A stretch of DNA of 45,830 nt, taken from Solirubrobacterales bacterium. GTDB lineage: Bacteria; Actinomycetota; Thermoleophilia; Solirubrobacterales; JACPNS01. Below are positions 12,751 to 17,451 of this stretch, one piece after another. The stretch lies in contig JACPNS010000013.1 in NCBI GenBank assembly GCA_016185345.1, positions 74,432 to 120,261 on the forward strand. The letters are read 5' to 3'. Both the position numbers and the translations under genes were made by a program. The notes beneath the pieces were generated by a model that was given only the letters and a program-made list of their open reading frames with translations, ran no database searches and was not told the DNA's origin. The stretch's first letter is position 1. Every line of letters starts with the position of its first letter.

Positions 12751-13506
12751 CTAGGCGGGTTGTGCAGCCAGTCGTGCTTCGGTCTCGCGCTGCGACTTCT
12801 CGATCAAAGCGTGAAGCTCATCGGCGCGACCCTCCCGCAGCAGCACGATCGGGTCGGGATCGCCGTTGACGATGTCCTCGAAGAATGCCTTGCGCTCGTT
12901 GTAGGTCGGGAGCGTTCCCTTGGCCCATCCGCGCGCGTCGTTGAGGATCACAGCGAGGTCGGCATACGCGTCGCCGAAGGCCTCACCGATCTCGCGCTTC
13001 ATACGCTTAGCGAGTGCGGGCGACGCGCCGGCGGTGCTGATCTCGATGGCGATCGGGCCGGATCGAGTGATCGCCGGAAGGATGAAGTTGCAGAGGGGCG
13101 GGACGTCGACGACGTTGACGAGCTTGCCGCGGGCTTCTGCGTCGTTGTAGACCTGCACGTTGACGTCGGTGTCGTTGGTCGCGGCGATGATCATGAACGC
13201 GCCCTCGACGTCGGTGGATTCATATGGGCGTAGTTCGAGCTTGATCGTGCCCTCGTCGGCGAGTGCCTGGATGGCGGGCTCAGCCTCTGGGGCGATCACG
13301 GTGATGTCGCCGTCGCAGGCGAGCAGGCCTTCGATCTTCTCAAGCGCGATCATGCCGGCGCCGACCACGGTTGACCTGCGGCCGGAGAGTTTGAGGCAGG
13401 CAATGTAGAACGGCGTCTCGAGCATGCCTTGGACACACTCTTGATCGCAGATGCCCTTCTTGAGGGCACAGACGCATTCTTTTCCGGCATAGGCGGCGGC
13501 TGGCAT
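12751..13506 (-). CDS. Precorrin-2 dehydrogenase (siroheme synthase N-terminal, Met8/SirC-like)
   Basis: NAD-dependent oxidation of precorrin-2 to sirohydrochlorin on the way to siroheme. The core reads [19 protein letters not shown] (Rossmann GxGxxA-like), [34 protein letters not shown] and [15 protein letters not shown], matching the CysG N-terminal domain. I place the start at the ATG at 13506 (251 aa). That adds a 27-residue extension with four cysteines ([15 protein letters not shown]); a later ATG at 13425 would remove it. It is divergent from the helicase gene at 13596. Confidence 0.85.
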
Positions 13507-13581
13507 GTACTGATTGTAGGTGTGGAGGATCGTCCAGCCCCCGAAAAACATTCGAGCGGAATTGGCTACCCGTTTTCGCTC

Positions 13582-13587
13582 TACGAT
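13582..13587 (+). promoter_or_regulatory. Putative -10 box of the helicase-HEPN operon
   Basis: TACGAT fits TANNNT and ends 8 nt before the ATG at 13596, which suggests leaderless transcription. No convincing -35 hexamer is visible at 17-18 nt. Confidence 0.4.
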
Positions 13588-13595
13588 CCGGGTGT

Positions 13596-15500
13596 ATGTA
13601 CGAGCCGACCGACCAACAGAAAGCAATCATTGACCACGACATTCGCTATCACGCGCGAGTTATCGCTGGCCCCGGCACTGGGAAAAGTGCGACCGCCGTG
13701 GCGCTGATTGAGCGCGTGCTTGAGGAGCTTCCTGACACCAAGATCAAGTTTTTGACGTTCACACGTGCGGCAACTCAGGAACTGGCGCGGAAGATGGATG
13801 GCGGAGAAGTCCATCCGTCGACGATCCACGCCTTCGCGATAGGGGCGCTGCTTCGAAACCCGGGGGCGGCCGCGTTTCCGCTGCCGCTTCGAATCCCTGA
13901 CGACTGGGAACAACGAAAACTCATTGTGCCGTTGCTCGCAAGGTACCTGCGTGGTCGCGGTCTCGATCGTGCCGGCGTCCGCGATGTAAATAGCCGCTTC
14001 TTGCGGGAGATGGTCAGTGGGTGGGAGTCGCTCAACCCGGAGGAATCCGACGACGTGACTCCCCAGGAGCGCGCAGCGTTCCGCGGACTTTTCGAGGAGC
14101 ATCGTGGCGTTTTCGGTTACACCCTCATGGGCGAGCTTCCAGACCTTCTTCGGCGTGCGATTGAAGACCATGATGACCTTGACGGAGTGGACTCGGACCT
14201 TTTGATCGTGGACGAATACCAAGATCTCAACGCGTGCGAGCTGCGAGTTCTGAAACTGCTCGCCGACCGGGGATCGACAGTTATCGCCATCGGAGACGAC
14301 GATCAGTCGATTTACTCTTTCCGTCGTGCGGATCCGGAAGGCATTCGCCGGTTTCCGATCGAGTTCGACACCCAATACGACTATCCGATGACGATCTGCC
14401 ATCGGTGTCCGGAGGAAATAATCGATTGGTCGCAGCGAGTCATCGCAGGGGATCCGGGCCGGGCACCGCGTCCTGAGCCGACCCCCGGAGACAACGCCCC
14501 GCAGGGCGAGGCGGTCCTCCTTCGATTCGCGAACGGTCTACAAGAGGCGGAAAGTGTCGCCGCCCTTGTGAAGAGCCTGAACGAGGATCGGGAGATCCCG
14601 CTTTCCGAGATCCTTATTCTCACAAGGACCGATCACAACGGACAGTTCTCAAGACCGATCAAAGAGGCCTTGGACGCATTGGCGATCGGGTGGTACGACC
14701 CAAGTCGCATCGGCGCGCTTTTGCAAGAAGAAGCATCTCGAAAGTTTCTCGCGTTCTTGCGGCTACTTTCCGACCGCCGTGACTCGCTCGCGTGGATGGC
14801 GCTAATAAGTCTCGAGCGCGGCGTCGGCGGTACATTCGTTGACTACGTGTACGACGAGGCGGTGTCCGTCGGCGCGTCGTTTGGCGAGACTCTTGAGCGC
14901 CTTGCCGCAGACGATTTCGCCGAAGGTCCGTCATCTAGTTCCACGGTCACGGCGATGATGGGACCGGTCGTCGAGGGCCTTGAGGCAATCGGGGAACTCA
15001 CCGCTTTAGAGGCGACAGAATGGCCAGCAAGAATCGAGGAAATGTTCGACGCAGGTCACTTGCCTCCTGTCGGCAACGAGCTGGTCGAGTTGATGCAGGC
15101 TGTCGCGGGCGAGCTGCAGGGCAATGAGCTCAGCCTCTCCCAGTTCGTATCGCAGCTGTGGCCCGTCGGTCAGGACCTCGCACGTGCGACGAGTGAAGGC
15201 GTGCGATTTATGACGATGGGCGGTTCAAAGGGTCTCACCGTCTCGGCGACGATTGTCGTTGGAGTAGAGCAGGATTTGATTCCTCGCGAGAATGGGGATC
15301 AACGCGAGGAGCGCCGATATCTATATGTCGCGATGACGCGCTCTACCGAAGTACTGGCGCAAACATATGCAGCTCGGAGGGTTGGCCCTCAAGCACGGGC
15401 AGGTCGCGCAAACTCCGGACGACGTTCGGCGACGGCGCTGCTCCGCGACACTGGCGTCGATGCGACGGACGGGGCCGAATGGATCGCTGAGATTTCGTAG
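13596..15500 (+). CDS. UvrD/Rep-like SF1 helicase of a putative two-gene module
   Basis: 634-aa superfamily 1A helicase with all core motifs: Q motif PTDQQKAI, Walker A GPGTGKS (25-31), motif Ia [12 protein letters not shown], Walker B VDEYQD (205-210), motif [15 protein letters not shown] (233-244), motif [18 protein letters not shown], and motif VI YVAMTRS (577-583). It is shorter than housekeeping UvrD/PcrA (about 720 aa or more) and lacks their C-terminal extension, which fits an accessory helicase such as those of defence islands (GajB-like size class). The only gene following it is the HEPN-type gene, 3 nt downstream. It interrupts a conserved metabolic region, and its codon choice looks less GC-rich than the hem genes. 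Expected activity: ATP-driven 3'-5' unwinding; target unknown. Confidence 0.85.
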
Positions 15501-15503
15501 CGC

Positions 15504-16970
15504 GTGGAAGGCCGGTCGAAAGCCAATCCAGGAGTTCGGGTGACGCTCGCCCCGATCTCCGTCCGGTCGGGCGAAAAGATCGCGATTCGCGTCGCTGCTC
15601 CCGTCGAGCTTGCTGGGTCCGAGTTCGAATTAGTACTGATCTCGACCGATCCGTTTGAGACTTCATGGCTTAGTTCGATGTCGGGTCGGCTCGACGAGCA
15701 CGGGGAATGTGAACTTGGCTTCGATATCGAACTTGATGGACCTGCGGTGTGCGAGGTAGCCGGCTTCAATCGGCGATTACCGGATCAGGACACGGCGGTT
15801 CCGGTCGCGTCCGTCACATCGAGTCGGCTCGCACTGAATCCCGGGATCGAGATCAAGACGATCGCCGACGTAGATCGCCTCTACTCGAGGCTCAAGGCGG
15901 CACAGGAAGCGTTGTATGCCAGTCCAATAGGCGCACGCGATGCCACTGGGTCGATCGAGCACCGGGCGATCTGTTTGGTCGAACGGCTACTGCTCACAAG
16001 ACCGCTCAAACTTCCTGGCGTCGAACTTCTCCCTGTATTGCATTCAGTCGGCGGAATTGAAGAGCACACTGTCGTCCAGAATCTGATTCGCGAAGTCGGG
16101 TGGCCGACTCAGATAGATCGTGCGCAGTGGTCACGCCAAGTATCCAGCAATCGCCCTTGGCTCTTGCTCAAGTTCAACAGCATCTGGGCAAGCGGCTTCG
16201 ATGAGGCTGCGCATCTTGTCTGGCAGTCGCGCGATCGCATTGCTGGCTCGCTCGCGATCTCCCGAAACGCGACGGCAGAAAACGTGGTCACGATAATTGA
16301 GCAGCATCAGCCGACCAATCGCGTTGCATCGCGGATTTATCATGAGGATCGGCCCTACAAGGGCAATTTGATCGGCGGGACAATTTCAGGTGAGAGTCAA
16401 CACGCTTTACTCGCCCACCTATGGGCCCTCGAAAAGGATCCGCTACTGGAACTCTGCGTCGATCTCTTCGCAGATGCCCAGTCGGAGCGTGACGAGGACT
16501 TCAAGTATTTGAAGCTGTGGTCAACGGTTGAAACATTGGCCCGCGCCAAGATCTCGGCGGGTCAGGAAGTCGTATGCCTGAACGGCGAATCGTGGGGCGG
16601 TCCACACGGAACAACGAGTTCAGCTCAACCTCTCGTGTATGAGCTACTCGCATCACGTTTTCGATTGGGAGGAATCGACGAGTTCAGCTCATTCGCCCCC
16701 GCGGCGAACCTTCGAGAAGCCGTGGGAGTTTGGTACGCCCGACGGAATGCAACCGCACATTACGGACGGTTTGATGCCGAGAGCGAACCTCAGTCGCGTC
16801 AGCAGTGGTTCAAACGGGCACTGTTGACCTTGGACGACGCAGCCGCGGCCAGCTCGTTCAATTCGTATCTCGGTGCTTTTGAGAGAGCGGTTTCGGCGGA
16901 TCTCCAGGCGCGCCTTTGGGCGAGCGGTCGGGCGCGGTTGCGAACACTCCAGGAAACGCTGATCACCTGA
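15504..16970 (+). CDS. Unknown protein with C-terminal HEPN-like ribonuclease motif
   Basis: 488 aa from a GTG only 3 nt after the helicase stop, so translationally coupled. Residues 1 to about 110 look beta-rich (SGEKIAIRVAAP, FELVLIST), like an Ig or sandwich domain. The middle (about 115-330) is mixed helical, with YKGNLIGGTISGES. The C-terminal third is helical and holds DFKYLKLWSTVETLARA and then VWYARRNATAHYGRFD. Here R414-N-A-T-A-H419 fits the R-x4-6-H catalytic motif of HEPN RNases. HEPN proteins cut RNA in toxin-antitoxin, CRISPR and abortive-infection systems; that this one is active and works with the helicase is inference. No Walker, HNH or nuclease motif of another kind was seen. 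Confidence 0.75.
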   Translation: MEGRSKANPGVRVTLAPISVRSGEKIAIRVAAPVELAGSEFELVLISTDPFETSWLSSMSGRLDEHGECELGFDIELDGPAVCEVAGFNRRLPDQDTAVPVASVTSSRLALNPGIEIKTIADVDRLYSRLKAAQEALYASPIGARDATGSIEHRAICLVERLLLTRPLKLPGVELLPVLHSVGGIEEHTVVQNLIREVGWPTQIDRAQWSRQVSSNRPWLLLKFNSIWASGFDEAAHLVWQSRDRIAGSLAISRNATAENVVTIIEQHQPTNRVASRIYHEDRPYKGNLIGGTISGESQHALLAHLWALEKDPLLELCVDLFADAQSERDEDFKYLKLWSTVETLARAKISAGQEVVCLNGESWGGPHGTTSSAQPLVYELLASRFRLGGIDEFSSFAPAANLREAVGVWYARRNATAHYGRFDAESEPQSRQQWFKRALLTLDDAAAASSFNSYLGAFERAVSADLQARLWASGRARLRTLQETLIT

Positions 16971-17078
16971 TCAATCTCCTAAGGATCGGCCCCAGGCGAT
17001 CAGCACTGCGAGCAATACGAACGACACAAGCATCGTGAAACCGGCGCCGATCCAGAGTTCGGTGGGCAAGCCGAGCAA
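16971..17078 (-). CDS. Possible 35-aa single-TM peptide
   Basis: A TTG-started frame encodes LGLPTELWIG, then a hydrophobic segment GFTMLVSFVLLAVLIAW, then a short GRSLGD tail. It begins 5 nt after the stop of the membrane gene at 17083 on the same strand and ends 1 nt from the HEPN gene stop. No Shine-Dalgarno is visible. It could be a real small membrane protein or chance. Confidence 0.3.
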   Translation of the reverse strand: MLGLPTELWIGAGFTMLVSFVLLAVLIAWGRSLGD

Positions 17079-17082
17079 GTAG

Positions 17083-17451
17083 CTACGCCGACCTGACTTC
17101 GCGCGGGTCGATCCTCAGCTCAGCGATTGCGAAGCACGCGGCAACGAAAATGCCACGGAGACTGATTAGGAAGAAGCCAGCGATGATCAACCAGGCGCCG
17201 GTCGTCAGATCGCCGAAGACTGCGAGCACCACTCCCGCGAGTGCGGCTACGACGCCAAGCGGAGCCACACCGAAACGCAACGCGTTTTCTACGCGGTTTA
17301 GGAGTTCGTTGACGCAGACAGGCGGCGCCGTCGTGAACGCGATTGTCCACGGCACGAACACACCTTTCGAGCGCGCGATCCTCGCGAACCAAGCCTCAAT
17401 CGCAAAGTCGAGCAAGACAATCGTCGGCAGGAGAATGATCTCCTCCACGGC
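17083..17451 (-). CDS. Small polytopic membrane protein, unknown
   Basis: About 122 aa from a GTG at 17451 (VEEIILLPTIVLLDF...). Upstream codons in the same frame coincide with the tail of the preceding gene and look non-coding. Three hydrophobic stretches are visible: LPTIVLLDFAIEAWFA, VAPLGVVAALAGVVLAVF and GAWLIIAGFFLISLRGIFVAACFA. No family was recognised. It follows the frameshifted membrane gene (17457-17959) closely on the same strand and is convergent with the HEPN gene. Confidence 0.55.
   Translation of the reverse strand, partial: AVEEIILLPTIVLLDFAIEAWFARIARSKGVFVPWTIAFTTAPPVCVNELLNRVENALRFGVAPLGVVAALAGVVLAVFGDLTTGAWLIIAGFFLISLRGIFVAACFAIAELRIDPREVRSA

Follow-up and report, generated by a model that had tools for sequence, protein, structure and literature searches.

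Does a helicase gene followed closely by a gene of no recognised family form a two-gene defence system, or did two independent genes travel together? The question is raised by a locus in the window, the whole stretch of 45,830 nucleotides analysed here, where a preliminary description made from the letters alone had read the pair as an SF1 helicase with a HEPN RNase. We find that the pair is real, co-acquired, probably HEPN-bearing, rare and missing from the libraries that we searched; relatives of each gene exist elsewhere, and it is their linkage and function that we infer. The explanation that we prefer, to which we give an even chance, is a rare, horizontally acquired two-gene abortive-infection cassette in which the helicase would be the sensor and the HEPN protein a putative RNase, both the defensive role and the coupling being conjectural.

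Two genes within one insertion

The two open reading frames lie where the preliminary description had placed them, both on the forward strand (Table 1). blastn against a sister genome (G001) aligns the left flank (window 12983-13503) with L030 7516-6996 at 89.8% identity and the right flank (window 16984-17148) with L030 6948-6785; in the sister genome these flanks, about 90% identical to ours, are separated by merely ~47 bp. The difference of ~3.5 kb consists of the helicase gene and the HEPN-like gene and no other gene. Because the sister genome is without exactly these two genes, the difference is read as a single insertion of ~3.5 kb. Besides G001 three congeners are without the pair, which is missing at this locus in G002 and G003. 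Given these empty genomes, a gain of both genes in one step is most likely. The low G+C count of a single line had earlier been offered as a weak hint of transfer, and it holds for the whole pair: its G+C of 0.591 ranks ninth from the bottom among 850 sliding windows of equal size (mean 0.628), and GC3 is 0.66 and 0.63 for its two genes, against mostly 0.70-0.89 for the neighbours. Transfer itself, with both genes acquired together, is borne out by the empty site in the sister genome. At the ends of the insert no transposase or integrase gene was seen, and the scan of flanking genes recognised no further defence gene.

At the same locus the congener G004 has ~3.9 kb of other genes (L033:3288-7147) where the window has the pair and two small membrane-protein-like ORFs. 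By eye, these genes comprise a two-part Lrp/siroheme-decarboxylase-like ORF and a PAS-type sensor-like ORF. Since they look metabolic or regulatory, we do not claim the locus as a hotspot.

Table 1. Features of the inserted pair, in window positions; residues of the HEPN-like protein are counted from its first GTG
Feature	Position	Strand	Basis
Segment absent from sister genome G001, holding exactly both genes	13504..16983		blastn
SF1A UvrD-like helicase, 634 aa, motifs intact	13596..15500	+	Pfam, motif alignment, PDB matches
Walker A GPGTGKS, residues 25-31	13668..13688	+	motif alignment
Walker B DEYQD, residues 206-210	14211..14225	+	motif alignment
Helicase stop TAG, in frame with downstream gene	15498..15500	+	single stop splits frame 13596-16970
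HEPN-like protein, 488 aa from first GTG	15504..16970	+	ORF translation
Predicted N-terminal beta-sandwich, residues 1-110	15504..15833	+	low-confidence model, pLDDT 30-47
Block YKGNLIGGTISGE, residues 285-297, top conservation outside HEPN motif	16356..16394	+	homologue alignment
HEPN-like domain (predicted), residues 295-488	16386..16967	+	AF2 model, VIA-align, sub-threshold MauJ
Invariant E343, first HEPN-like helix, ETLAR (E-x3-R)	16530..16532	+	homologue alignment
R414-N-A-T-A-H419, predicted catalytic R-x4-H	16743..16760	+	R, N, A, H invariant in three members

The two genes share one frame and are parted by a single TAG and one codon (15498-15503). The gap of 3 nt first described holds if translation begins at the first GTG (15504) and does not if it begins at GTG 15540. 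The second start is the likelier, because AGGAG (15530-15534) stands 5 nt upstream of it whereas GTG 15504 is preceded only by a weak GAGA; the HEPN-like protein thus probably starts at 15540 and has 476 aa. A fusion broken by the TAG, or readthrough of it, is disfavoured: helicase relatives stop close to this position and conservation is poor immediately after the stop, which makes a true fusion unlikely, and a good Shine-Dalgarno sequence lies further in. The shared frame is probably a coincidence, and a fused form of the two genes in other strains would be informative.

A predicted HEPN domain in a small family

The 488-aa protein matches no family above threshold in Pfam, NCBIfam, PADLOC or PHROG and is absent from Pfam, PADLOC and PHROGs; a PDB sequence profile search with it gave no match. 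All searches together found two homologues. The Mycobacterium abscessus prophage prophiGD05-3 carries one as its gene 45 (24% identical, or 26% over 77% of the protein), and an actinobacterial MAG, G279, carries the second as a partial copy at a contig edge (34% identity). Pattern scans of 84,980 species genomes and of IMG/VR added nothing to these two, and neither did translated searches of plasmids or searches of phages; the scans of genome contigs and IMG/VR use short peptide patterns, which distant members may escape. Several sets of up to 399 related genomes each were also searched, and a profile run against 399 genomes from the same class as the window found no additional homologue. The prophage gene (L002:5842-7275) is flanked by an HNH endonuclease gene and a terminase small subunit gene, and its product could act in superinfection exclusion.

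HEPN proteins are recognised by R-x4-6-H, the R being followed by a polar residue, and often by a second acidic residue within E-x3-[KR] (PMC3710099). The motif R414-N-A-T-A-H419, singled out in the preliminary description, is present, and R414 and H419 are kept in both homologues. More broadly, the five named residues of RNxxAHxG are invariant in both, at 24-34% identity; in the three-member alignment five of these eight columns are invariant, against 15% overall (P about 0.003). All three members thus have R-x4-6-H with a polar residue after the R, and E343 is invariant in them, with R347 in the window protein alone. The YKGNLxGG...GE block is also kept in both homologues, its K being H in the prophage copy.

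Could an ordinary DNA-repair helicase simply lie beside an unrelated protein, whose R-x4-H arose by chance in a helical domain that is not HEPN? A loose R-[NDH]-x3-5-H, a polar residue following the R, occurs in 22% of shuffles of the protein ('RN..[AVSI]H' in 0.8%), so the motif string alone is weak evidence, and no curated family rises above its cut-off. The invariance of the motif in both homologues is better evidence than the string itself. Together with structural matches dominated by HEPN proteins, the patchy presence of the gene and a separate housekeeping UvrD in the genome, it makes a chance motif very improbable.

The structural matches come from an AlphaFold model of the C-terminal 194 residues, built on 3 sequences and of modest confidence (pLDDT 59, pTM 0.54). 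When VIA-align compares this model with the PDB, at least 24 of the 25 top rows are structures of the HEPN superfamily (Z 7.6-4.6), among them HepT 8xdj (Z 7.6), 5yep (7.3), AbiV 9bj7 (7.1), Csm6 6tug (6.1), sacsin 3o10 (5.0) and MtlR; the count includes 1wty and 1ylm, which we take to belong to the superfamily. The remaining row, 3mfn, is a protein of unknown function; the first unrelated row follows, a designed protein with Z 4.4. Every Z for the model is below 8 and Foldseek gave no match for it at E <= 0.001; the weight therefore lies on the uniformity of the match list and on the invariant motif. A viral structure library gave no significant match. MauJ (PF17419) alone among Pfam families touches the domain in more than one member: it spans the RNxxAH region of isolated domains in two of the three members with E 0.0014 and 0.0013, below its cut-off (20 vs 28 bits); a MauJ search in related genomes was blank, as were its controls. 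From the modelled fold and the motif invariance, which uphold the HEPN call made earlier, the C-terminal domain very probably has a HEPN fold, and we consider it likely that the protein is an active RNase.

As for the N-terminus, the beta domain proposed for it stands as probable and beta-rich in a low-confidence model (full-length AlphaFold, 3 sequences, pLDDT 40). A match of this region to carbohydrate-binding modules (Z 8.5) was used no further than 'beta-rich', the region being at pLDDT 30-47.

HEPN toxins are commonly two-gene systems. The HepT/MntA structural matches and the insertion of the pair as a unit would also suit a toxin-antitoxin-like arrangement, in which the helicase or its ATP-bound state silences a HEPN toxin and the pair stabilises its segment instead of sensing phage. 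We regard this as improbable: the large N-terminal region and the 634-aa helicase are unlike toxin-antitoxin antitoxins, no MNT nucleotidyltransferase domain was matched in the helicase or the flanking genes scanned, and the homologues stand alone.

A helicase branch with changing partners

The helicase had been described as complete and UvrD-like, and so it is: SF1A motifs Q and I-VI are all intact in the motif alignment, and PF00580 (E 3.7e-28) and PF13361 (E 1.6e-17) both match. In motif V it has G where UvrD has H and a SEFIR-fused relative has N. UvrD, PcrA and Rep are the nearest solved structures in a PDB search, and the helicase is distinct from the housekeeping UvrD, which is a separate gene in the same genome. 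In a tree it clusters with actinobacterial helicases (28-39% identity) and stands apart both from UvrD (100/99) and from a true GajB, although GajB sits on a long branch. Two Rhodococcus plasmids carry its sister helicase (98/98), the closest being the SEFIR-UvrD fusion WP_277371907.1 (38% identity), whose SEFIR domain is recognised by Pfam (7.2e-7) and by PADLOC bSEFIR (6.4e-20).

This fusion, of 862 aa, lies at L018:6341-8926 (+) on a conjugative Rhodococcus plasmid (NZ_CP120358.1) and adjoins HmaA/HmaB; the second Rhodococcus copy, on pDF02, is cut short and adjoins an IS3 element. Other relatives adjoin a TaqI-like specificity domain with a DUF2726 nuclease-like gene, an ArdC-like gene, or an integrase. 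In G526 a transposase-like ORF stands between the helicase relative and a 406-aa RNxVAHG protein with an OLD-type nuclease. Given this company of SEFIR fusion, HmaA/HmaB, R-M, ArdC-like, integrase and OLD-type nuclease genes, the branch accompanies immune and mobile genes with changing partners, and a defence association of the branch is supported by its gene neighbourhoods.

Is the pair, then, a conserved module? Such a module is not supported. The pairing was found in no second genome among the genomes, plasmids, phages and IMG/VR sequences searched, and the linkage in other genomes on which the preliminary description had staked its proposal is not borne out. The prophage copy of the HEPN-like gene has no such helicase and stands alone; the G279 MAG, 98% complete, gave only a UvrD-type (housekeeping) match; none of the helicase relatives examined has the 488-aa protein as its partner. 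That the two proteins work as a unit is suggested by their shared insertion, orientation, spacing and composition and by analogy with helicase-effector systems, namely Gabija (PMC10781630), Nezha SIR2-HerA (PMC11559045) and a helicase with DUF2290 (PMC10952713). Likewise, HEPN domains have repeatedly been coupled to SF1/SF2 helicases in defence (PMC3710099).

In the two-gene cassette that we prefer, the SF1A helicase would attach to abnormal DNA, such as phage DNA ends or ssDNA intermediates, and translocate along it, hydrolysing ATP, and once engaged it would release or activate its HEPN partner. The partner, with a putative layout of beta domain, middle alpha/beta region bearing the YKGNLxGG block and C-terminal HEPN domain, would dimerise and cut RNA (tRNA or mRNA) via R414/H419, and this cleavage would halt translation in the infected cell. 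The RNase activity, the coupling of both proteins, the trigger and the anti-phage outcome are all steps that we infer.

The alternative with the most weight, which we consider less likely, is that the HEPN effector needs no partner: the 488-aa protein would act by itself with an ApeA-like logic, an N-terminal sensor joined to a C-terminal RNase, and the helicase would be an independent co-traveller. Both homologues do occur without such a helicase, and ApeA, of similar size, is a single gene with a sensor-like N-terminus and a HEPN domain. Against this, the insert is exactly two genes, adjacent, co-oriented and of the same composition; moreover, the helicase is without the SEFIR effector that its closest relative carries, whether by loss or from the start, and a separate effector therefore fits. 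Both explanations share a predicted defensive or toxic HEPN RNase and differ solely on the need for the helicase.

What would the cassette mean? Our broader proposal, which is tentative, is that this helicase branch may be an exchangeable DNA-sensing engine for varied cell-suicide effectors, with SEFIR in cis and a HEPN RNase in trans, the pair founding an unnamed helicase-HEPN type of defence with an uncatalogued HEPN family. If so, an RNA-cutting effector would join the partners of UvrD-like helicases, alongside the DNA nuclease of Gabija and the SEFIR domain of the plasmid relative, which suggests that the branch is a general trigger with an interchangeable output. It would also define a small HEPN family, carried by a prophage of Mycobacterium abscessus, that is unrecognised by the family libraries used.

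Comparison with known systems

The pair resembles Gabija in being a two-gene operon of an SF1A helicase adjoining an effector. It differs in that GajA, the OLD ATPase-TOPRIM protein, is lacking: the partner here is HEPN-like, and no OLD/TOPRIM match was obtained in the genes scanned on either side. A divergent Gabija-type system with a replaced effector might be read from the match of the helicase to the PADLOC GajB profile (E 1.1e-35), yet the UvrD profile does equally well (6.7e-36), a true GajB reaches 5e-207 against that library and shares just 23% with the helicase over 424 residues (44 bits), and the helicase falls outside both GajB and UvrD in the tree. Because GajA is lacking, this reading is largely refuted and is most improbable. 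Of the kinship to Gabija suggested earlier, the general helicase-effector likeness stands; a closer one does not, with GajA lacking and the helicase about equally near to the UvrD and GajB profiles.

A separate family of ~390-406 aa, with no Pfam or PADLOC name, has a conserved glutamate-bearing helix and an invariant RNxVAHGAF (L012:3687-4904 (-), L043:5049-6209 (+) and L044:5004-6179 (+)). It adjoins OLD/GajA-type ATPase-TOPRIM nucleases in three of three loci, which include a bona fide Gabija pair from a plasmid of Erythrobacteraceae, and is, as judged from motif and neighbours, a candidate HEPN accessory of Gabija/OLD systems.

Proteins of the ApeA type, encoded by one gene, presumably work alone. 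ApeA (PF18862 ApeA_NTD1 and PF18739 HEPN_Apea; 461-475 aa, with a sensor-like domain at the N-terminus and a HEPN domain at the C-terminus) is like the window protein in length, in its beta-rich N-terminal region, and in a C-terminal helical domain where a helix with E is followed by RN...H. The 488-aa protein, however, matches neither Pfam model at E <= 10, whereas a true ApeA gives 3.8e-58 and 6.5e-37; HHalign against two ApeA proteins was not significant, and the window protein is paired with a helicase. MauJ, besides matching below the Pfam cut-off, is named for methylamine utilisation. The helicase with DUF2290 (PMC10952713) is likewise a two-gene system with a PF00580/PF13361 helicase, but our 488-aa partner has no DUF2290 match in Pfam. 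Giant proteins of the MTES_1575 type, compared by description, couple HEPN to an SF-I helicase and Vsr (PMC3710099); they are one multidomain protein with transglutaminase and Vsr, against two proteins here. The closest helicase is that of the SEFIR-UvrD fusion, in which the SEFIR domain is fused at the N-terminus, whereas in the window the HEPN-like protein is separate.
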